The translations under genes were made by a program, and so were the position numbers. The notes below the pieces were generated by a model. It had not been told where the DNA came from, did no database searches, and was given only the letters and a program-made list of their open reading frames with translations. Positions 2,485-58,190 of a stretch of DNA of 64,000 bases are shown here, piece after piece. Numbering within the stretch: the stretch's first letter is position 1; every line of letters begins with the position of its first letter. This DNA comes from Xiphophorus maculatus (taxonomy: Eukaryota; Chordata; Actinopteri; Cyprinodontiformes; Poeciliidae), in NCBI RefSeq assembly GCF_002775205.1, contig NC_036453.1, positions 14,402,594 through 14,466,593 on the forward strand, read 5' to 3'.

Positions 2485-3302
2485 TCACTGAAGGAGCAGA
2501 AAGTCGAGCAGCAGAGCATCGCTGAAGAACTCGGAGAAACCCGGATCAGAACCGGAACCGGGCTCCATGCAGGCCTGATGGTCGGCCAGGCAGGAGAGTG
2601 GGGGGGGAGTCCACTGGGCTGGGGGGAAGACGGGAAGAGGAGGAGGAAGAGGAAGAGGAGGAGGAGTGGAGTCTGGAACCAGGAAGTTCAGCGATGAAGA
2701 GGAGGAGTCAGAGTGAGGAAGAGCAGAGCTGCTGCAGTGCATGCTGGGACATTTGGAGCTGGGCTCTGATGATGATGATGATGGATCCCTGTCAGACTTC
2801 CTCTTCCTCCTGCGGCGGAAGCTGCCGTTGTCGAACCTCTTCCCGCAGTCCGGGTCCAGAGTCCAGTAGCTGCCCTTACCTGGGGAGGAAGAGGAAGGTT
2901 ACAGGAAGTGACGTAACGGCTTACAGGAAGTGATGAAGGCAGGTGCAGACCTGGGTCGTCATCGCCGCGGGCGACCTTCCTGAAGCAGTCGTTGAGCGAC
3001 AGGTTGTGGCGGATGGAGTTCTGCCAGCCGGCCCGGTTGCGGTCGTAGAACGGGAAATGGGTCGACACGAAGCTGTAGATCTGGCTCAGCGTCAGCCTCT
3101 GATTGGGCGAGCTCTGGATCGCCATGGCAATAAGGGCTGAGTACGAGTATGGGGGCCGCACCGGGCCCAGTGGATCCCAGGAGCAGAACCAGGACCAGAG
3201 CGGAGCGGTGCCGGGGACCGGGTCCGGAACCGGCCAGGAAGATGGAGCGGAGCTGGGGTAAAGGCTGCAGGTGGACCCGTCCAGAACCAGAGCCTGGTCC
3301 AT
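2485..3302 (-). CDS. foxi1: FOXI-class forkhead transcription factor
   Basis: Two coding exons, 3302-2951 and 2879-2485, join in phase to give 248 residues. A forkhead (winged-helix) DNA-binding domain runs from about residue 49 ([14 protein letters not shown]) through [16 protein letters not shown] to [11 protein letters not shown] in exon 2, followed by a basic [10 protein letters not shown] stretch. The single intron just after DDDPG and the RRKRKSD tail are typical of the FOXI class. FOXI factors specify otic placode, pharyngeal arches and ionocytes in fish. The C-terminal half is serine- and proline-rich and ends in an acidic/hydrophobic [14 protein letters not shown], probably an activation segment. 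The N-terminus (48 residues) is much shorter than in FOXI1. The ATG at 3302 is used because the upstream frame has only a GTG. Assignment to foxi1 rests mainly on adjacency to lcp2; another FOXI paralogue is possible. Confidence 0.85.
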
Positions 3303-3334
3303 GCTGTCTGAACACCTGCTGCTCACCTGGGCTT

Positions 3335-3372
3335 CTTATAGCCCCAAGCCCCGCCCACTGCCCACTGATTGG
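3335..3372 (-). promoter_or_regulatory. core promoter of the FOXI-class gene (TATA, GC box, CCAAT)
   Basis: Reading on the minus strand, CCAAT (3372-3368), GGGCGGGGC (about 3358-3350) and TATAAG (3340-3335) occur in the canonical order just upstream of the ATG at 3302. If the TATA element works, transcription would begin about 5-10 bases before the ATG. Confidence 0.6.
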
Positions 3373-5392
3373 CTGTTGGCTTGATTTGAATAAGAACAGG
3401 CAGAATATTTGCCCCGGGGCAACAGGGTGATACGTTAGGACCTGAGTCAGCCAGGGGGAGATTCTTCCACCAGAACCGGTCCTGGTTCTGAGCCAGTCCT
3501 GATTCTGATCCAGTTCAGTTTCTGATCCAGTCCAGGTTCTGATCCGGTTCAGGTTCTACATAGTTTTACTCACTTCCTGAGAAGCTGTGAAAAACATTTA
3601 ATCCCTGAAATCAGAGCCAAGTTTCTCTGAAGTAAACAGAACCAGCAGACGGATCAGAACCGGGACGTGTTTGGACCAGTTACTTCCAAAGTGATTATCA
3701 CTTTATTTATCAATCAGTTTCATTTATCAGTTCATTACGGTTGAATCGGTTCTCTCCACCAGGTGTTTTCATTCCCAGGTTTCCAGTTGTTGACGTTTCG
3801 AGGAATAAAAGTTGAAACCGGATCGGACCCGGAGACTTCCTGAAGACGTTTTAATCTGCAGCCATCAGACAGAACCTCCTTGATCGGATTAGAACCAGAA
3901 CCAGAACCAAACGCTGACTCAGCAGGTTTTCTGTTTGCAGCTGAAACTAGGATCATATCAGGCTTTACTGGTTTCTGGGCACCATCTTTAAAAACATGGC
4001 GGCTCAGTTCAAATTATTAATGAGGTCAAAGGTCAGCCGAATGATTCCTCCAGACTGAGGTCACTCTGGGACATACTGACCGCTCAGAGCTACTCCGCAC
4101 AACCCACTGAGCTCACAGCACTGCAAACAGAAAACCAGTCTAGTAAATAGATTTGTTTGATAAACTAAATGTAACAAATTAACTGAATCTTTAAAAGTTG
4201 GAGCAATATTCTGTTTTGTTTCTGATCCTCTTATCTTGTCTTCTTCTTCTTTTGTTTATCTGGTGTGTAAAGCTGGTCAAACATCCAGGGTGAAACCCTG
4301 AGGAACTCCAGATGTTGAGCTGCTGGATTTCTGTTCAGACATTTCTAGTTAAAACACACGCAGTTCCCAGCTGATAAATGAACTGCCAGTCTGTCAGCAG
4401 CGAGCGCTGAGTGGATTTACAGATTACCCCTCACACACTCAGATCGTTAATTCATCTCCATCAGTCAGGCTGCAGCTAACGGATTTGTTATCTCATCACG
4501 TCCTGATCCGCTCAGGCTGCTGGCGGTTGGAGGCGAGCGGCAGTAATCTGCGGAGGGAACAGTCAAAACATCAGCAACCGACCACTTGGTGTGAGGGTTA
4601 GGGGGGTGAAGGGAGTGTTACCATGGGAACAGGTAACTGAACACCTTCAACTGTCTCCAGATGTAAATCCTCCAACCAGCAAAGGAAGCTAATAAACTGA
4701 ATGTTTTTACAGTGAAACTAAACCTCAAACTAAATTTGTTTTTTTCCAAATAAACTCTATAAACTGATACTAGCTTCATGTTTCTGAACTAATTTTGATA
4801 TTTCTGTGTAAATTTGTTTAAAAGGCCTAAAACGTCTCATTGTTGCCCTCTTTATATTGAACGGTGGTACTGCAGTTTCCCTGTTTGTTACATCATATCC
4901 TGTCCAGGTTTTAAAGCATCTCAGTCAGACGCACGCCCCCTGGTGGCGAATCAGGAGCTGGAATAGCGAGTGCTGGGAGCAGAGATTGTCAGCATTTCTC
5001 ACAGCAGCTCTCAGGAGTCGCAATAAACGTATCCAAAATATTAAAAAAAGTTGCTAAATTTGTTGCTTTTTTAAATAAAAATATACAGGGCCTTAAATGT
5101 TGCTTCTAAATACTGTAACAAAGTTTGTAAGTGGCAACAGTGATTCCTCCTGTAAAGCTAAAGCACTTTACCAGCATATTTACTGAAAGCTAATGTTAAA
5201 TCAATATACTAACATGTTATTTAGCAGATGCTAACACCAATTTGCTATACCAAAACATTATTTAGCAGAAGCTAATGCTAATTTGCTCTCCCTATTTTGA
5301 GTCCAGTCCTTGAACCTGACCACTTGATGTTCAGAGTTCTGGAAACTGCCTGACTGAAATAAAACTCCAGAATATTTCTGATGTTTCCAGAT
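3373..5392. other. intergenic between the foxi gene and the lcp2 3' end
   Basis: No gene seen. Around 3465-3560 the phrase CTGATCCAGTTCAGGTT recurs degenerately, and AGAACC/GGTTCT words are unusually common. The rest is unremarkable AT-rich fish intergenic DNA. Confidence 0.5.
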
Positions 5393-20450: not shown

Positions 20451-20646
20451 CTTTTTTTTTTTTACCCCTCCAGGGGGTCTTTTGTGGGCTCTAGTGTCCC
20501 TTATATGACAGTGGGCTGACAGGAAACGGGGAAGGACATGCGGCAAATGTCGTCGGGTCCGGGAGTCGAACCCTCGACGGCCGCATCGAGGACTGAAGGC
20601 CTCCAAATACGGGTCGCGCTAACCGCTACGCCACCATAGCATGCCC
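20451..20646 (-). mobile_element. tRNA-derived SINE inserted in the LINE
   Basis: On the minus strand it starts with a tRNA-like head: A box TGGCGTAGCGGTTAGCGC, B box GGGTTCGACTCCC, then a body and a poly(A) tail (poly-T at 20451-20461 on the plus strand). The insertion is bounded by an exact 8-bp duplication CAGAAAAC (20443-20450 and 20647-20654). Removing it rejoins the reverse transcriptase frame at FDRVNQKT. Confidence 0.92.
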
Positions 20647-20816
20647 CAGAAAACTATTTTTAAAACTGTGCCAAGCTAATGTGCCCAAATGTACAGTAAG
20701 ATGTCTGTCCTATTGGTATGCTAATCAAACTATGCAGGTCAAATGGGACAACTGTGTGTCTGTATTCTTCCGTGTCAGTAATGGAGTCAGACAAGGAAGC
20801 ATTTTATCCCCTAAAT

Positions 20817-21018
20817 CAGTGGTGCCCAAAGTCGGTCCTCGAGGATCCGCATCCTGCATGTTTTAGTTCTTCCCATGGTGGCAGTAACAACTTTTTCATG
20901 TAAGAACATGCCAATGTTCTTATTAGTCCTTCTAATGAGCCATCATTTGATCCAGGTGCGTTAAACTAGGGAGAGAACTAAGACATGTAGGATTCTATCC
21001 CTCAAGGACCGACTTTGG
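20817..21018. mobile_element. hAT-type MITE inserted in the LINE
   Basis: Left end CAGTGGTGCCCAAAGTCGGT, right end CCGACTTTGG in inverted orientation with its last few bases lost. Flanks CCCTAAAT (20809-20816) and CCCTATAT (21019-21026) are a 7/8 target duplication. It separates GSILSP from the LFHFYMNDL part of the reverse transcriptase. Non-coding. Confidence 0.82.
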
Positions 21019-21880
21019 CCCTATATTGTTTCATTTTTATATGAATGACCTCTCTAAGCAGCTAAACCTGTGTAGAACTGGCTGTATTGTTGGAGATACA
21101 ATTATAAATCAATGTATGCTGATGACCTGCTGGTTTTTAGTTCAGCTGGTCTTCAGAAGCTGCTTAATGTCTGTTCAGCATACGGTGAATTAAATGATGT
21201 TGAATTCAATCCATCAAAAAGTCTCATTTTGATTTGTCACACTAAAGAGGACAAAAATAGGGTATTTCCAAATTTCAAGCTGTCTGGGATTTTATTGAAC
21301 GTCTCAAATGAAGTAAAATATCTTGGTCATGTGTTGACAGACCGTCTGTCTGATGATGAGGACGTTTACCGTCAGGTTCGAATGATATTTGCTTAGGCAA
21401 AGATCCGGTCTGTAAGTTTGGATTCTGTTCTGATGAAGTGAAACTGAACTTGTTTAGATCATATTGTACATCACTGTATGCTGCACATTTGTGGTGCAAC
21501 TTTAAAAAAGCCAGTCTTCGAAGATTGAAGGTGGCTTATAATGATGCATTAAGACTTTTGTTTAATAAACCCAGATGGACCAGTGCCAGTGAACTGCTTG
21601 TATCTGCTCGCCTCAGCACTTTGAAGGCTGTTTTAAGAAAGCTTATGTATACATTTATTTGTCGTCTAAACGAGTCTAACAATGGAATTATCCTACTGTT
21701 GACTAATGTTAAATACAGTGCAGTAAAATACTCGCCTGTACTTTGGAGACATTGGTATGACTGCCTCCTGAATGGTTAGGGGCCTTTTTCATGTACTTTT
21801 TATTCTTCTATTGTATTAATTGTTTTTATTTTTATATAATTTGGACTTTGAGTCTGTAATAAAATCTATCTATTCAAGAT

Positions 21881-22569: not shown

Positions 22570-23450
22570 CCCTACAGCAGTGGTCCCCAAACTGCGGCCC
22601 ACGGGCCGGATCCGGCCCGCCTCCACATTTGGTCCGGCCCCCTGAACAATACCAGAGAGTATTTTATGTGTATTGTATTCGATAATAAAGTTGGACTTTT
22701 GCAATAAAATATTCCTTAGTTATGAACTTTTTTCATTATTAACTATTAGTTAGTAACTATTTCATACACGCATATAAGGTGACATTTTGTTCCACCCTTC
22801 GGGGGTCTGTGCCCCTATCTGGCAACCCCCAGCAAAAAATCTTAAACCCGCCCCTCTCAAAGAGAGAACGGAATAATGGCGAAAAGATTAGGTAAGAGAA
22901 AAATTGGTTCAGAATGCAGGGCATTTAACCTGCAGTGGAAAAACAATTTTTTTTTTTTTGTTCAATGCAAAGAAAAGGCCGTATGTCTCATCTGTCAAGA
23001 GGCGGTGGCGGTATTCAAACAATACAATCTACGGAGACACTATGAATCCCGTCATAAAGACAAGTATGATAGCTTGCAAGGCCAAATGCGAGCAGACTTA
23101 ACTCTTAAAACTAAAAGGTGGACTGTTAGCACAGCAGAATACATTTGTACGCCAAGCTCAGCTGAACCAGTCATCTGTTCGGGCCAGCTTTCGGGTTGCT
23201 CAACTGACAGCAAGCAGCGGTAAACCTTTCACTGATGGAGTTTGTCAAGAAATGCATAAAAGCTGTCATGGAGGTGTGTCCTGAGAAGAAAGACATCTTT
23301 AATGCCGTGAGTCTATCAGCCAGTACAATCACCAGACGCATTGAAGAAATCGAGGGTAATGTATGTATATGACCAGCTGCAGCAGAAGGCGAAAGAGTTG
23401 CGGGTTTTTTACCGCAGTGAAGTTAGTTTCAAGTTGGATATTCGATATTC

Positions 23451-23730
23451 GAGCTCCGCGGAGTAAGCGGCGTTTAGCTCAAGGTTGATCCGATTTATGA
23501 ACGCTACTGTCGGCCAGCGGTTCTCCACCGCTCCCGGCCCGAGCTCCGCGGAGTAACCGACGTTTAGCTGAAAGTTGATCCGATTTCGGAACGCTACTCT
23601 CGGCCAGCGGTTCTCCACCGCTCCCGGCCCGAGCTCCGCGGAGTAACCGACGTTTAGCTGAAAGTTGATCCGATTTCGGAACGCTACTCTCGGCCAGCGG
23701 TTCTCCACCGCTCCCGGCCGCAGCGCCCGA
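23451..23730. repeat. three 90-bp tandem repeats in the left TIR
   Basis: Units start at 23451, 23541 and 23631 with GAGCTCCGCGGAGTAA and end in CACCGCTCCCGGCC, exactly 90 bp apart. The right TIR has just one copy. Units 2 and 3 are almost identical; unit 1 matches the right TIR best (TAAGCGGCGTTTAGCTCAAG). A minus-strand open frame across them exists only because 90 is divisible by three. Confidence 0.93.
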
Positions 23731-23792
23731 AGGTTCACTTAGGGACTATCAACAAATTACTGAACCTAACATTCCTGTCAAAGAAATATAAT

Positions 23793-24562
23793 GTTTTCTT
23801 CAATAGCTTCCAGGTCATGTGACCTATTGACTCAAAATCACTTTGGAATAATTATACTAGTCTCTTTAATTGAGGCACAGTCATTTGTTTTCCATTTTAA
23901 ATCATTTTCAATTTTTAATTAATTTTTTTCATCAAAATTGAGTGTTTTTCTTCAATAGCTTCCAGGTCATGTGACCTATTGACTCAAAATCACTTTGAAA
24001 TAATTCTAATAGTCCCTTTAATTGAGGCACAGTCATTTGTTTTCCATTTTAAATCATTTTCCATTTTTTAGGAATTTTTTTTCTTCAAAATTGAGTGTTT
24101 TTCTTCAATAGCTTCCAGGTCATGTGACCTATTGACTCAAAATCACTTTGAAATTGTTCTACCAGTCTGTATAGATGAGGCACAGTCATTTGATTTCCAT
24201 TTTTAGCCATTTTCCATTTTTTAGGAATTTTTTTCTTCAAAATTGAGGGTTTTTCTTCAATAGCTTCCAGGTCATGTGACCTATTGACTCAAAATCACTT
24301 TGAAATAATTCTAATAGTCCCTTTAATTGAGGCACAGACATTTGTTTTCCATCTTAAATCATTTTCCATTTTTTAGGAATTTTTTTCTTCAAAATTGAGG
24401 GTTTTTCTTCAATAGCTTCCAGGTCATGTGACCTATTGACTCAAAATCACTTTGGAATAATTCTAATAGTCTCTTTAGATGAGGCACAGTCATTTGTTTT
24501 CCATTTTAAATCATTTTCAATTTTTAATTAATTTATTTCATCAAAATTGAGGGTTTTTCTTC
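23793..24562. repeat. left subterminal array, five 152-bp repeats
   Basis: The palindrome GGTCATGTGACC occurs at 23813, 23965, 24118, 24270 and 24422, inside units CAATAGCTTCCA...GACTCAAAATCACTTTG. A sixth unit is cut off at about 24562, right where the coding sequence starts. Confidence 0.95.
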
Positions 24563-24567
24563 AATAA

Positions 24568-27500
24568 GATGAAGATGGCCATCATACAGCAGAAGCACAG
24601 CACAGCAAAAGTGACAAAAGCAACAGCATTATTGCTAACTCACCATTTACAAAGACTTTCCAAGTTTTACGGGACCAAGCTCAGGTTGACATTCTGTCCG
24701 AGGAATCAGAGATCACAGAAAATCATTACTGCTGTCCTGGTATAGTTGATGTGCTTGTGAAGAACTACATGGGAATCATCCCACTGTGGAGCGGAATGTT
24801 ACTTGGCGACTTAACACGGTACAAAACACCCACATCTGCTGCAACAAATAAAACAAGCAAATCAAGAGAAACAAACTGCCATGTGGAGTTGTGGTTTGGC
24901 TTGGTAAAAAAGAACATCTTGGCCAAAAAAAAGTACCTCAGACCAGCAGACTTCATCACAAAATTGTATACATCTTTACAAGGTCGGTATGTTGAACATG
25001 TTATGCAGCATGGTCTGCCAGACAAACTTCTGGACCAAACTGTCAGAGTTTTGAATAAACCGGCAGATGATCCCAAAGAAAAATGGAACAAGAGGGAAAG
25101 TTCTGCTGGTCAGACAAAGACCAAATCCAAGTATTTCAATCCCCCGAAGATATTACCCAATCCCAGAACTTCCAAAGGCCCAAAAAAACAAATCACCAAA
25201 GCTGAAGATGATAACAATAATAAAGAATCACAGGTAAGGTTTCACCTACCTTTGAGGCTCTGTTGCAGTTCCACATAAAGAATTAGTTTGTTAAAACAAT
25301 GAATTTATCTGATAACATTTTTTTGTAATCTTCATTTCTTAAATTTCATTAGAAGTAAACAAGTAATAATAGCTTGCATTTCACAATTTCATAATGTGGT
25401 TAACATGGGATAACATAACTGACATATATGTATTACAGTCTGGTATAGATTTTGTCTTTATTATGGCCGGCTGTTAGCATAAAGTATTATTTAAATTTTG
25501 TAAAATATACATTTTTGTTGTATTACTTTCAAATGTTTTGATTTGGGTTTTTTTTATATCTGATTTGCAGTTAACCTTGCTTTGGAAAAAGAGTGATACA
25601 GAAGTTGTAGTAGCAGTTGTTCCGTCACAAATTAAAGGTCGGAGCATTGTGATTCATCATTCTGACTTGTGCACTCTTCGACCACATCAATGGTTGACAG
25701 GGGAGGTATGTGTTTGTTTCAGTCATTTGTAAAACATCTTCAATCTCAAGATTAATACAAACCAATTTTTAGATTTGTGTGAGAAGACTTTTGGATGCAT
25801 GTTTAATATGTGGAAACGCTGATATTCCTTGTGCAGATCATTGAAAGCCTTCTGCATGTGGCTGCCCATGCATTGGGAGTCATGGACACCTTCTACATCC
25901 TGAATCACTACTCAGCTGGTGTGATTTTGTTCGGGGACAGAACTGAGCTTCCTAGACAAAGTTTACCAAAGGTAATGGATATCTTTGTTGCTATATTATG
26001 TCATTATAAGATGAATGAACAGAACTTTCACAGTTACACATCAGTTACACAGAGCTACAAAATTGACAACAAAATTACTTCGAAGATGAAATCATATGTA
26101 ATGTGTTTATGGCAAATATGTGTGCTTGTTGATAAAAAGAAGAACAAGATGTATTTTTTTAAAAGGTTTGAATTAAAAGCTGAGTTGTTTTTAAAAGAGT
26201 GTTCTGAAAGAATTGCCATGTTTTACTGACTACTTGGCTGTTTTAAACATTGAAACACTTGACAAAATTAATGTAATTGTTCACTTCCGTGCGAGTTCCA
26301 AATATAAGTGTCACAGAGGGTTATCCAGGCAAATAAGGAGCTGAACATGGCAGTAAGGATGGATAACTTCTTTAGACAACATTACATAATTAATTCCACA
26401 TGTAAAAAAACTTCTGTACTGGACACTACATATAAGATTTCAGAGTAATGTAAATGTCAATCATTTAATAAAGTAGAAGTAAGAATCTTGATCTAGTTGC
26501 ACCCACATTAATCTTGGCTAAGTAATTTCATTTGATATCTTGTACGTGTCCTACTAACTAACATCAACATCACTGCAAGCTTTACCCCATCCCACAGCAG
26601 CCTGTACAGGGCAATGTTTAGCACCTTAACTCTTGTAAAACAGTGTATTGATTATTTTATCATTTTTAAAACACCTTCTCATTGAAAAGCAAAATTGTCA
26701 GTAAAAGTAAATACTGACATGTGGGAAAAGATTAATTGCGAGACATGTGTTTAAAGTTTGTCTTTATGTTAACATTTAATTTTTGAACATTTTTAATGCC
26801 ATTTCAGGTAAACTTTGACAACTATGAAGCAGTTCTGTCATTTGTCCTTGTGAACAACAATCACTGGAAGTTGCTGGTTTGTGATTTTTTGTCTATAATC
26901 AATATTTTTTCATTTTATGGTTTGGATAGAGCATGACATATTCACATTAGTTTTAATGAAATTTTTCTTTGTTATGCCCCTTTACTTTGTTGATCTGTTT
27001 TAGTACATCAATGCAGAAGCCAGAACTGTATTCCTAATAGATCCTGCACAAGTATCATCTGAGCTTGTGGACTCCCAAAAGGCAGCTAAAAGAATACAGT
27101 AAATAAAGCTCTAATAAATTTTTAAAATGTATTAAAAATTAATAAATTTGCAAAGTGACCACATAGAGATTGAGTTAAAAATCTGAATGTATGTGACATT
27201 CAGATTTCTGAATATATTATTGAAATATATTATCCATAACATTTTTTCAAAATATATTATGTAAAAAATATTTCTATTAATTTAAATGTTTATGTAAATA
27301 TTAATTTCAATAAACTTAACATTGTTGTTGTTAACAGAAACTGATAAGAGGAAAGCGTGAGTTGTCTTATGAGTGGAATTACAGAATACAATTGCTCTTA
27401 CACAAATCATTTTGTTTGTTATCCAGAGAATACTTCAAAATGAGAAGGACATGCCATGGAAAAACAGACTGGGTTGGGATCCAATGGAAAGGGGGGACAA

Positions 27501-29100
27501 TGCGCCACCCTATTCAACAAGACGGAAGCAGCTGTGGAGTTATTGTAGTCAAAGTAAATTAATGAGTTCATGTTTTTTGTTATACAAGTGTGGATACTGT
27601 GTAATTATTATAGAGAAAAGTTGTCTATCATCAAATACAGTCTCTCTGGTTAGTTAAAATGGGCTTTCGGAATTGTGGAAAGAGTGTGTATTCACTTGGA
27701 GGAATACAGACTCCCCCAACAGTAGCCCATAACTGGGGTCAGTGCAACATGCCACACAGTATTTGTAATTACAGTTCTTTCATCATCATCTAAATGTTGA
27801 AACATTTAGATGTTTCACTACAGGTATCTGTACTAACAAACATACCTGTTTTAGTATATGTGGGTACACTATATATGTCCACATGAATGTTTTAAGTCTG
27901 ATGCATTATAATGCCATAAAAAAAGTCTTTAAAAACTTTTTTTTTCTTTAGATGGCAAAAGCACTGATGGAAGCCTTCCCTCTGATGCCAGATGTAGATT
28001 TTGACACAACAAAAAAGGCAATGAAAAGTGAAAGAAGAACTCTCGCTCTTCAAATCCTTGATGCATCAGGTATACCATGTGCATTTCGACTTACAATACA
28101 TAAACATACACACATATATATTGCAGAATCTCCCCAGCTCTTACATTACTGAACCAGTCTTGACTGGTGAATTTAAGGTTTTTTATTTTATTTGATTAAG
28201 ATCAACCACCATCATCAAAGTCACCACAATAACCTCAATAAATGTGAAAACTAAAACATATACAAACATTGTAATACAAAACATGAACTTAACCAATAAA
28301 GATAACAAAACTAAACAGACCTCGCTGCTTTCGCTGGGGAACACTAAGTTTTGATTTCTTTGTGACAAGCACATCTTGACAGTTCAATTAATTCACTGTT
28401 TCAATGACTCTTTCAACTTATATAGAGTCTGCCCTCATTAGCTCCTGCAGCCCGTGAGGTCAATAAAAAAAATAATAAATTACAAAATGCAAATTCCATT
28501 TCACAAAATATAAACCACCAACAGTGCCAATCCAAACAGACAAAGATATCTAAACGATATGCAACATTGATAATTTAGAAAATTTACTTTAGTTTACAAA
28601 TGTATTTTATATAATCTCCAAGTATTAATAATTTTAAATTAATTTTCTGAAATAATTAGCTATTTTGTTATATATATATATATCGATCTATCAATCTATC
28701 TTGTTTGAATATGCTGTATATTCTTCTTGATTACAGTATTTGATGACCACTGTTGGTGTGCGATGTGCGCTGCATACAAAGCCCCGGGGTCTGGCCCTGG
28801 AATGACAGACTGGGTGAGAAATCAAGAGTTGTCAATGTAAAATTCAGAATTAGACACAGGAAATGACTCTTGGGAGTCATGAAATGTTTTATATAATAAA
28901 TGACAAGCAATTAAACACCAAACTGTGTGACAGGAGATGAGTAAGTTCAATACTGCTAAACATGTATATTTTCTTGTATTTGTGAACAGATCCAGTGTGA
29001 CAACTGTGACTGATGGTACCATGCCCTGTGCATAAATATGAAGAGCACAGAATTTCAAAAGAAAAAAACAGGCAGTTGGAAATGTGTATTGTGTAGTTAA
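24568..29100 (+). pseudogene. transposase tail, Ulp1-type (C48) cysteine protease and PHD finger, 5'-truncated
   Basis: Nine exons join in phase: 24568-25233, 25571-25705, 25837-25971, 26808-26876, 27004-27098, 27427-27553, 27952-28069, 28737-28813, 28990-29100, 511 codons in all. The first, with no in-frame ATG, contains NYMGIIPLWSGMLLGDLTRY and CHVELWFGLVKKNIL, then LRPADF and a basic linker; this looks like the region after a DDE transposase core. The Ulp1 fold has all catalytic residues: His in NNNHWKLL, Asp in FLIDP, Gln and Cys in QQDGSSCG. The last two exons form a C4HC3 PHD finger (CWCAMC, QCDNCD, WYHALC, WKCVLC). Ulp1 domains are de-SUMOylating-type proteases; their role in transposons is unknown. 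Defects: the N-terminus is missing and codon 29011-29013 is TGA inside the PHD finger. Confidence 0.85.
25234..28989 (+). other. introns of the Ulp1-PHD transposon gene
   Basis: AT-rich introns with GT-AG ends; the longest is 25972-26807. The donor after 27098 (GTAAATAAA) is weak. Nothing else is recognisable, apart from a TATATATA tract near 28671. Confidence 0.6.
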
Positions 29101-29334
29101 TCTGAAAACTAGAAACTGTGTTCATTATTGTTCGAAATATGTTTTGAAAATATCTGTGGAAAATGAAAATGTAATATGTTTGTGTGGCATAGATGCTATG
29201 TGTGATGTATAAAGTGTACTGGAATCATTTCAAATTGATAAGTAATTTTATGACGTTATCTGAAAGCTATTGAGCAACAATCTTAAACTTTAAGGAAAAG
29301 ATTCCTAAAAATTACAAAATAAAAACATAAAACA

Positions 29335-30047
29335 TAAATAAATGTCTGTGCCTCATCTAAAGACACTAGTATAATTATTTCAAAGTGATTTTGAGTCAAT
29401 AGGTCACATGACCTGGAAGCTATTGAAGAAAAACTCTCAATTTTGAAGAAAAAAATTCCTAAAAAATGGAAAATGATTTAAAATGGAAAACAAATGACTG
29501 TGCCTCAATTAAAGAGACTAGTATAATTATTCCAAAGTGATTTTGAGTCAATAGGTCACATGACCTGGAAGCTATTGAAGAAAAACTCTCAATTTTGAAG
29601 AAAAAAATTCCTAAAAAATGGAAAATGATTTAAAATGGAAAACAAATGTCTGTGCCTCAATTAAAGAGACTATTAGAATTATTCCAAAGTGATTTTGAGT
29701 CAATAGGTCACATGACCTGGAAGCTATTGAATAAAAACCCTCAATTTTGATGAAATAAATTAATCAAAAATTGAAAATGATTTAAAATGGAAAACAAATG
29801 ACTGTGCCTCATCTAAAGAGACTATTAGAATTATTTCAAAGTGATTTTGAGTCAATAGGTCACATGACCTGGAAGCTATTGAAGAAAAACACTCAATTTT
29901 GAAGAAAAAAATTCCTAAAAAATGGAAAATGATTTAAAATGGAAAACAAATGTCTGTGCCTCATCTAAAGAGACTAGTATAATTATTTCAAAGTGATTTT
30001 GAGTCAATAGGTCAAATGACCTGGAAGCTATTGAAGAAAACATTATA
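29335..30047. repeat. right subterminal array, five 152-bp repeats in inverted orientation
   Basis: Reverse complement of the left array. GGTCACATGACC starts at 29402, 29554, 29706 and 29858, and a variant GGTCAAATGACC at 30010, with the same 152-bp period. Confidence 0.95.
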
Positions 30048-32296
30048 TTATTTAATATTAAAATTATTGAAAATATTGTATATGACTTTAAAATTTTATA
30101 GATGCTATTTTGGCTCATGTAAAAGCATGAATTAGCACTGACAATTAGTTAGTTGGTTACAATTCAAGGCATTTATTAACATTTCTTTGACAGGAATGTT
30201 TGGTTCGGTAATTTGTTGATAGTCCCTAAGTGAACCTTCGGGCGCTGCGGCCGGGAGCGGTGGAGAACCGCTGGCCGAGAGTAGCGTTCATAAATCGGAT
30301 CAACCTTGAGCTAAACGCCGCTTACTCCGCGGAGCTCGAATATCGAATATCCAACTTGAAACTAACTTCACTGCGGTGAATTACCTTCATTAGCACTGGA
30401 TGAGAGCACGGACGTGCAGGACACCGCGCAGCTGCTCATTTTTATTTGTGGAGTTACTGCAAACTTTGAGATGTGCGAGGAGCTGGCAGCCCTCCAAAGT
30501 CTCAAAGGGACTACGACGGGGGAGGATATTTTTGGCAAAGTGTACCAAACCATGGAAGAGTTGGACCTGGACTGGTCAAAGCTGGCCAGCATCACAACTG
30601 ACGGGGCTCCCAATATGGTGGGCATGTCTCGGGGTCTAATAGGACACATGAACCGGGAGATTGAAGAACGAGGTCTCACTGCCCCGCTACAAGTCCACTG
30701 CCTAATTTACCAGCAAGCACTGTGCTGCAAAGTGTTGACGTGGAATTCTGTCATGAAGGTTGTGGAGGCATGCATAAACTTCATCAGAGCAAAGGGACTT
30801 AAACACAGGCAGTTCCAAGAATTCCTGTCTGAACTGGAATCTGCGCACGGAGATGTGCTGTACTACACAGAGGTCCGATGGTTGAGTCGGGGCGGAGTTT
30901 TGAGGCACTTTTATGAGCTGCTACCTGAAATTAACCATTTCTTCATTCACAAAACAAAATGGTGCCAGAGCTGATCGACCCAAAATGGAAATGGCACCTC
31001 ACATTTTTAACAGACATGACAGAAATGCTGAACAGCTTTAACTTGCAGCTACAAGGCCAGGGGAAACTCATTTGTGAAATGTATTCCCACATCAAAGCAT
31101 TTGAGGTGAAACTAGAGCTGCTTCTGGGACAAATGAAAAACACAGTTTTATTCATCTCCCTGCTATACAAAATCTCTCTGCAGAGAACCCAGCGGTCCCT
31201 TTTCCACCTGAAAAGTGTGTGGAAGCACTGTAAATGCTAAAGCCGGAGTTCAGTGTGCGATTCCTTGAACTACATATTTATGCAAAAGTAATACGTCTTT
31301 TCCAGAACCCCTTTGTTGCCGACATTGATGAAGCCCAGCCTTCTTATCAGTTTGAGTTGGCCGAGTTACAGAACTGTGATGACGTGACGTGTTCAAGCCC
31401 AACAGTCTCATTGACTTCTATGCCGCCCTCTCAAACGACACGAACCCCAACATCAGAAAACACGCAATGAAGATGTCCACACTTTTTGGCAGCACGTATA
31501 TCTGCGAGCAAACCTTTTCCCGTATGGAACTGCTGACAACTTCAATGAGATCAAGATCGACAGATGAACGTCTGCATCAGTGTTTGGGACTGGCAGTGAC
31601 TAGAATGGAACCTGACATCCAACTTCTCACCAGCCAGATGCAGGCCCACAGTTCACACTGATGAACGTACAAAGGTAAGCTACAGGTAAGTAAGGTAAGT
31701 ATAAAGATATAATCATAATAAAATCCATCTCCACAGCCATACTGGTAGTGGTACTGGTTGTGCTGTGTAGGTGCTGTATCACTTTGTTCAGTTTCTCAGC
31801 CTGCTTGCTTTGTGGGTTTCACAGGGAAGTTGATGAGAGAGAGAGCTGCAAACAGCGATGTCTACAGTACAAGCTATTGGAACCTACAAAAAGATTATAA
31901 GGAAGGAACACAAGAACTTTGAGAGCTGCTCATATGAGCCATTTAAGTAAGTGATTCTGCTCTGACAACTAAGCTGAACTTGGACCTGTTAAGATTGTGC
32001 ATGGCACAACAGAAAGTTTATGTTCCATGGACTTTTTTTTATGTGAAGAACCCAGAGAGTGTTATTTGGTTATTTATTTCATAAATAGTGTTATTTATTT
32101 CCTGACTTTTGTTTTGTGAAGAATCCAGAAAGGGTTATTTGATTGTGCTTTCTGGAAAACATTAAATTTTTACGATTAGGCACTCTTGCAATCATCACAC
32201 TTTTTTCTGTTACAAACTGACCCCTCCCCCCCTGCCAGAGAAGGGAAAAGTTATGTGGCCCTCAGAGGAAAAAGTTTGGGGACCCCTGCCCTACTG

Positions 32297-57441: not shown

Positions 57442-58068
57442 TCAGTTTTTCTCGGCTAGGCTGCTGTCCGCGGGGGGGCTGCTGTTCTCTGAGGTAATGG
57501 CCGGGGCAGAGGTGACGTTGATGGGGATGATTCGTTCTTTCCCGTCGCTTGGCGGTTTCTCCCGGGGCGCCTGGATCTGCAGCCGCCCCCCCACCAGCGA
57601 GCAGCTGACAGTCTCTGGGTCGACGCCGTTCGGCAGGTCAAACTCCTGCCTGAACTCCTGACACCTGTAGGAATAGGAGCCCTTTCCGTCCTCCTGCTTC
57701 TTCTCCGTTCTGCCACTCACCTGCAGCTTCCTGCCGACCTGTTTAACGGACAGCTCCTGCGGGGCAAACTCGGCCGTGTCCAGACTCAGTGCGAACTTGT
57801 CACTGTCCTTCCCCAGCTCCTGGAAGGAAATGGGCCTCAAAGCCCCCGCAGAGCAGGAAGTCTGGTCGATCTCTTCGAAGATCTTCTGGTGCAGCCGCTC
57901 CATGTACTCCATGCTCTGCCTCATCTCCTGCATGTGGCGAATCATCTCCTGCTCCATTTGGAAGAAGAGCGGCCGGGTCTCGGGCCACAGGCTGCGGATG
58001 GGCCAGTGCAGCTCCAAGAAGGGCCTCATGGCAGCCGGAGTCGCCTGGAAGATGCTGGGACACAACAT
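57442..58068 (-). CDS. hsp30: HSP30-type small heat-shock protein, intronless
   Basis: A single exon of 208 residues. Starts MLCPSIFQATP and has the fish/frog HSP30 N-terminal signature WPIRSLWPETRPLFF, then a helical EMIRHMQEMRQSMEYMERL and the alpha-crystallin domain, about residues 88-170: KFALSLDTAEFAPQELSVKQ, GRKLQVSGRTE, FRQEFDLPNGVDPETVSC and GGRLQIQAP. The tail is serine/proline-rich. Small heat-shock proteins bind unfolding clients as ATP-independent holdases. The frame is open 26 codons further upstream to an ATG at 58146, but that ATG overlaps the TATA box, so 58068 is taken as the start. Absence of introns is usual for this stress-induced family. In zebrafish nomenclature the closest name could be hspb11-like. 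Confidence 0.93.
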   Translation of the reverse strand: MLCPSIFQATPAAMRPFLELHWPIRSLWPETRPLFFQMEQEMIRHMQEMRQSMEYMERLHQKIFEEIDQTSCSAGALRPISFQELGKDSDKFALSLDTAEFAPQELSVKQVGRKLQVSGRTEKKQEDGKGSYSYRCQEFRQEFDLPNGVDPETVSCSLVGGRLQIQAPREKPPSDGKERIIPINVTSAPAITSENSSPPADSSLAEKN

Positions 58069-58144
58069 CCTGTCGGTCTGTTGGAGGCTGAGAGGATCTC
58101 TGATCTGCTGCTGCTTTGTCTGAGAGATGTCTGTCCCTGGTTGC

Positions 58145-58190
58145 ATTTATACCCCAACACGCCTCAGCAGGAAGGTTCCAGATGCATTCC
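58145..58190 (-). promoter_or_regulatory. hsp30 promoter: TATA box and heat-shock element
   Basis: On the minus strand TATAAAT occupies 58151-58145. Eighteen bases further upstream, 58170-58190 read on the plus strand is GGAAGGTTCCAGATGCATTCC. This is alternating GAA/TTC pentamers (gGAAg, gTTCc, aGATg, cATTc), two perfect and two near, an HSF-binding heat-shock element at classic spacing. Confidence 0.75.

Follow-up and report, generated by a model that had tools for sequence, protein, structure and literature searches.

A young, apparently MULE-like transposon family of Xiphophorus maculatus carrying the two halves of a putative DDE-Ulp1-PHD transposase gene in separate elements

The 64,000-nt window of the Xiphophorus maculatus genome studied here (the whole stretch of DNA analysed, with positions counted from its start) contains an element with long terminal inverted repeats (TIRs), the gene of which encodes a C48/Ulp1 peptidase and a PHD finger and has neither Asp of a DDE transposase core. 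This raises the question of what kind of transposon the element is and how such a copy came to be moved. The answer that we consider probable is that it belongs to a recently amplified, non-autonomous, cut-and-paste family resembling Mutator-like elements (MULEs), the members of which are deletion derivatives of one DDE-Ulp1-PHD transposase gene and were moved in trans.

The element started with ACCGCAGTGAAG at 23411 and ended with CTTCACTGCGGT at 30377. Identical ends were found in further copies, and the bounds given in a preliminary description of the locus, made from the letters of the window, proved exact. The long inverted repeats that it reported were also confirmed, with outer arms 95% complementary and an identical 22-base stretch starting 6 bases inside each tip. 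Both arms were composite, a ∼40-bp tip being followed by 90-bp units (three on the left, one on the right) and then by 152-bp units (∼5 per side); at more than 700 bp and with tandem repeats, they are long TIRs in the sense applied to some MULE groups. Every 152-bp unit also contained the palindrome GGTCACATGACC (10 sites at 23794-24566 and 29336-30040; nine exact and one with a mismatch when searched as a 24-base pattern), which resembles a basic helix-loop-helix-type site and is perhaps recognized by the transposase or by a host factor.

Nine exons separated by eight GT-AG introns were joined into a 510-residue product, with a single in-frame TGA at codon 482 of 510. Among 1000 random sequences matched for dinucleotide composition, stops averaged 35 per 510 codons with a minimum of 18, compared to one in the joined exons, so that the openness of the frame is far from chance. 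When the joined protein was searched against Pfam with an X at the internal stop, it matched Peptidase_C48 (PF02902; E 9.2e-08, 32.6 bits, cut-off 20.7) and the C4HC3 PHD finger (PF00628; E 3.1e-07, 30.8 bits, cut-off 24), and it aligned weakly with yeast Ulp1 (1euv; E 0.0038), the His, Asp and Cys being aligned. The nine phase-compatible exons, the peptidase with its catalytic residues and the PHD finger had all been recognized beforehand; the TGA, which interrupts the PHD finger of the window copy itself, had been overlooked, as had the absence of both DDE Asp from this copy. Searched one by one against Pfam, the exons gave no match. Exon A had none in Pfam or among PDB sequences and a single chance row in NCBIfam (E 0.13), and its single-sequence structure prediction had a mean predicted local distance difference test score (pLDDT) of 38.5, too low for use. 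As we read it, TNCHVELWFG in exon A is a candidate for the helix that carries the Glu in DDE transposases.

DNA-level queries of the 704-Mb assembly located exon A at six places, one of them partial. Five of these 3′-half copies (the window copy, L007, L008, L009, and L010) had a common 5′ joint, at which TIR repeat meets exon A, while the sixth, C20 (L011), had a different joint at window position 24740, where our reading suggests a short shared TATAG. The interiors of the window copy, L007, L008, and L009 were 99.66–99.85% identical over ∼4650 bases, and L010, from which ∼26050-28953 was deleted, was 99.6–99.8% identical to its sister copies across 1758 bases. For C20, identity was 99.45% by BLAST; the 98.1–99.1% of the multi-copy alignment partly reflects misalignment, the differences at 24581-24676 falling where this copy has its own deletion. 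The 510-codon frame was open in L007 and L009, and the TGA in the PHD finger was common to the window copy, L008, and L010. The C20 copy (G000 C20:25012477-25026763) was 14.3 kb long, with a long-terminal-repeat-type (LTR-type) retroelement nested between parts of its left arm.

The apparent remainder of the gene was found in sister elements. A search of the assembly with the left tip gave at least 41 matches (40 of 156 candidates were scored), including three more elements with the same tips, C1 (L059, 4514 bp), C5 (L060, 4617 bp), and C8 (L058, 7944 bp), none of which matched the interior of the window element. The open reading frame (ORF) of C1 extended over 607 codons from stop to stop, contained LHLDATG, ETDYSWAL and LCSAHIMK, and ended in TRDRGLKE followed by a TAA at the TIR repeat; it was spread over two frames in C5 and interrupted in C8. 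Read by eye, LDATG, TDYSWAL and CSAH would be, in that order, the D, D and C..H of a DDE core, the two candidate Asp being D466 and D539 of the 5′ half and the D-D-C..H-E order being pieced together from two separate half genes, the 5′ half and exon A. A 700-base query from this ORF found only the C1, C5, and C8 elements, the last as two pieces. C1 differed from C5 at 4 and from C8 at 15 of 3265 sites. The transposase tail claimed in the preliminary description is thus supported, because elements with the same TIRs carry the apparent missing D/D half.

Several other sequences were found around these elements. C8 contained a LINE-like (long interspersed nuclear element) reverse-transcriptase ORF and, within its 5′-half ORF (L058, ∼4010-5362), a short coding tandem repeat (EQNEETTQERTQ...), which is greatly expanded there and nearly absent in C1 and C5. 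A diverged element, L061 (C4:134038-138501), had similar tips and arms ∼75% similar, and neither gene half was recognized in its ORFs. Other repeats (L046-L056) showed 87–92% matches to the outermost 125 tip bases; several of them had conserved sequence outside ACCGC and therefore belong to another family.

In this assembly, the halves with D/D and with E-Ulp1-PHD thus sat in separate young classes. Perfect 9-bp target duplications flanked three of the nine elements readable at both ends, namely L008 (TGGTTCATT), C8 (GAAATAAAC), and C20 (ACTTTTAAG); the count covers the window copy, L007-L010, C1, C5, C8, and C20, the diverged C4 element (L061; 3/9 flank match) being left out. These three duplications, the shared ends, the presence of both halves and the youth of the copies were observed directly. 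If the DDE reading is right, the 3′-half copies were unable to cut alone and so would have been moved in trans. None of the six places with exon A was among the three with the 5′ half. Since no place found joins the halves, both classes have the appearance of derivatives that arose by internal deletion and were mobilized in trans, and the distinct joints of the window-type and C20 copies also count for deletion. The preliminary description had taken a relative without a DDE domain in the same genome as speaking against a transposon; all six places with the 3′ half are, to the letter, such relatives, and the candidate core was found in the sister elements.

The ancestral autonomous element would have encoded one transposase, with the D, D, C..H, E core followed by C48/Ulp1 and then PHD. 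Internal deletions would have left two complementary classes with complete ends, the 3′ half (window type) and the 5′ half, the master element being missing, rare or unassembled. Judging from the anatomy, the transposase of a full-length copy would bind the tips and repeat arrays, cut, and insert with a 9-base stagger. Its Ulp1 domain would probably strip SUMO or a similar modifier either from the transposase or from chromatin or repair proteins of the host. The PHD finger would probably tether the complex to a histone-tail state; the pair may help the complex to act on sumoylated proteins and on chosen chromatin.

Several observations weigh against this reading. No autonomous copy was found in the assembly. 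As no copy spans the join, a stretch between the halves may have been lost, or the two may have lain apart, and searches at the DNA level do not see diverged relatives. The 9-bp flanks of the six other elements agreed at only 4–7 of 9 positions. Finally, no Pfam transposase was matched by exon A, by the 5′ half (606 residues, E up to 1) or by the joined core (416 residues, E up to 10).

The imperfect flanks occurred although the copies had hardly diverged. For the window copy, L007, L009, and L010, flank agreement was highest at length 9 (22/36), the runner-up being length 4 (8/16), and 3 of 360 pairings of left and right flanks, the true pairing included, attained 22 matches. Mismatches spared the centre and lay nearly all in positions 2-4 and 6-8. 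Of the 18 ends, nine had a GGT starting at distance 8 from the tip, compared to 0–3 ends for any one of 56 other distances; it thus stands five bases outside the tip and is complementary to the terminal ACC. The left GGT of L008, one of the nine, lies within a perfect duplication and is therefore native. Since the counts were made after the pattern had caught the eye, these figures are flattering. At the window locus, the element interrupts a decayed gene, hAT-like as we take it from its motifs, and all five relatives of this gene without the element read TTTGAATTTTTTTC at the insertion site. The original 9-mer was therefore GAATTTTTT and the window flanks are altered, TGAA having become GCGGG on the left and TTT having become ACC on the right, with the element-adjacent bases retained on both sides. 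Empty sites exist for one of the six altered elements, so that the direction of change is seen once and extrapolated five times.

We tentatively suggest that insertion rewrites its own flanks: the 9-base gap fill may begin with bases copied from the 5′ end of the element (ACC), and GGT-N5-ACCGC would then replace part of the duplication. A similar pattern would arise from quasi-palindrome correction during a later round of replication. Rewriting predicts original 9-mers of CTGTTCGGA for L007, TCCACACCA for L009, TGTTATTTG for L010, TGAAACTTT for C1, and AAAGCTGCT for C5. That the altered flanks reflect chance together with a target preference for nGGTnACCn, or else assembly error, is doubtful. 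The late counting and the single altered element with empty sites speak for it; however, GGT and ACC were absent at the window site in all five empty hAT sites, a preference cannot explain why the left and right flanks of a single young insertion are unlike, and assembly error would need like changes at many places. The window alone cannot fix the duplication, since, in 2000 trials with random flank pairs, 46% shared an exact 5-mer and 21% an 8-mer when up to one mismatch was allowed. The early candidates GCAGTGAA and TTACC were withdrawn, as comparison with other copies puts the tips at ACCGC.

The perfect 9-bp duplications of three elements (MULE target duplications being 8–11 bp, mostly 9), the long tandem-repeat TIRs and the D-D-C..H-E order as read by eye point to a MULE-like element. 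A Mutator affiliation is likely, not proven, given that no Pfam transposase was matched, and "MULE-like" is used here without a claim of membership. It is unlikely that the family represents a separate, uncatalogued DDE superfamily carrying Ulp1 and PHD. Such a lineage would fit the lack of any Pfam family for the joined core and the 5′ half at the thresholds given above, but the perfect duplications, the TIR type and the motif order as read point to MULEs, and profiles cannot be compared with much sensitivity when one sequence family is all there is. Relatives were sought in phage, plasmid, viral and genome contig collections and none was found, which has little weight because these hold few or no animal genomes. 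At the level of titles and abstract openings, the literature searched gave no description of this element or of the flank pattern, which is no proof of their being unpublished. Kolobok elements make TTAA target duplications; none was seen at the element flanks, and the Kolobok comparison suggested earlier was dropped.

The separation of the halves could also mean a two-component transposon, in which each class makes half a transposase, joined as two chains or by trans-splicing, and no master element is needed. Both classes are young with complete ends, no assembly place holds both halves, and in our reading the halves could almost meet in frame (RGLK / DEDG); moreover, the C1 5′ half is open from stop to stop, and the 3′ halves of L007 and L009 are open as well. 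Such a system is nonetheless very improbable. Two of the three 5′ halves are broken (C5 and C8), the PHD stop recurs in the window copy, L008, and L010, C20 has another deletion joint, and ordinary deletion derivatives account for all of these. We know of no split DDE core of such kind. Derivation of both classes by deletion from one transposase gene is thus preferred.

The features of the window copy and its insertion site are listed in Table 1. In the interrupted gene, the zinc finger PF18658 (E 8.2e-10) was matched in the left ORF only, the right ORFs giving no telling Pfam match. The five relatives without the element were 93–95% identical along the right flank; 8 additional short matches were left out of the empty-site comparison. 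Elsewhere in the window, an ORF at 2688-3335 (-) resembles a forkhead factor and one at 57442-58146 (-) a small heat-shock protein, both in keeping with a teleost host, and pieces at 20597-21779 (+), without a telling Pfam match, are presumably from a non-LTR reverse transcriptase.

Table 1. Coordinates of the element, its gene and its insertion site in the window.
Feature	Position	Strand	Basis or remark
Whole element	23411..30377	+	6967 bp; tips ACCGC...GCGGT, common to other copies
Left tip	23411..23449	+	End comparison with other copies
Three GC-rich 90-bp tandem units, left arm	23450..23719	+	
AT-rich 152-bp tandem units (∼5), left arm	23794..24566	+	
152-bp tandem units, right arm	29336..30040	-	Decayed unit runs inward to ∼29222
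Single 90-bp unit, right arm	30241..30338	-	
Right tip	30339..30377	-	End comparison with other copies
Exon A, putative 3′ half of transposase	24568..25233	+	Candidate Glu in TNCHVELWFG, codon 24886-24888, read by eye
Exon 2	25571..25705	+	Splice sites
Exon 3	25837..25971	+	Splice sites
Exon 4, Ulp1 His (NNNHW)	26808..26876	+	Splice sites, Pfam, 1euv alignment
Exon 5, Ulp1 Asp (FLIDP)	27004..27098	+	Splice sites, Pfam, 1euv alignment
Exon 6, Ulp1 Gln and Cys (QQDGSSCG)	27427..27553	+	Splice sites, Pfam, 1euv alignment
Exon 7	27952..28069	+	Splice sites
Exon 8, first part of PHD finger	28737..28813	+	Splice sites, Pfam
Exon 9, remainder of PHD finger	28990..29100	+	In-frame TGA 29011-29013; final stop 29098-29100
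Left 9-bp flank GGGTTTTTT	23402..23410	+	Altered duplication; empty sites GAATTTTTT
Right 9-bp flank GAATTACCT	30378..30386	+	Altered duplication; empty-site comparison
Decayed hAT-like gene interrupted by element	22846..31661	+	ORFs 22846-23223, 30366-30974, 31383-31661

A young vertebrate transposon family with a SUMO-type protease and a chromatin reader, divided in this genome between two complementary non-autonomous classes, offers a way to study the part that Ulp1 and PHD play in transposition. The altered duplications, if confirmed at more empty sites, would be a direct trace of insertion gap repair and, if general, would point to a so far unexplained end-templated repair step that leaves a readable mark.

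Among known systems, Zisupton reportedly has a C-terminal Ulp1 according to the 2012 paper describing it. This feature, the fish host and the many exons would suit a Kyakuja-Dileera-Zisupton (KDZ) element, towards which the preliminary description leaned. Such an identity is hardly credible, as the perfect duplications are 9 bp rather than the 8 bp of that group and its domain PF18758 was not matched by the joined protein, exon A, 5′ half or joined core (PMC12730594; PMC9297572). In Muta1-type MULEs of Aedes aegypti, duplications measure 8–9 bp, the long TIRs bear a terminal motif together with tandem repeats in subterminal position, and there are many non-autonomous derivatives that vary in repeat number (PMC5225508). 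By description, the fish element shares the duplication size where its duplications are perfect, the repeat-rich long TIRs and the derivatives, whereas Muta1 measures 3.2 kb and its transposase 504 residues, and the passages of that account drawn on here mention neither Ulp1 nor PHD (PMC5225508). Rehavkus, a MULE-related group compared likewise by description, has 9-bp duplications, a PHD finger in the transposase, long TIRs and a minisatellite near the TIR, as here, where three of nine elements have perfect duplications, but is known from arthropods and annelids, with Ulp1 not mentioned in the part of the source drawn on (PMC6446971). Ginger1-9_HM likewise has C-terminal Ulp1 and PHD, other Ginger1 elements having a C-terminal Ulp1; the 4-bp CCGG/CCGT duplications, TGTNR tips and Gypsy-type integrase core of Ginger1 are absent here (PMC2836005). 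Ginger1 was ruled out by the ACCGC tips, the 9-bp duplications and the lack of a Pfam integrase match in the 5′ half or joined core. The same paper cites MuDR-type elements of hydra, lancelet and plants with Ulp1 in a Mutator-type transposase gene, and a legend names PHD too (PMC2836005). The earlier statement that the element could not be placed in a described family is right in part: its anatomy is MULE-like, and a transposase with both Ulp1 and PHD, that of Ginger1-9_HM, was in print in 2010 (PMC2836005). The combination of Ulp1 and PHD is therefore not new; here it occurs in a MULE-like setting in a fish.

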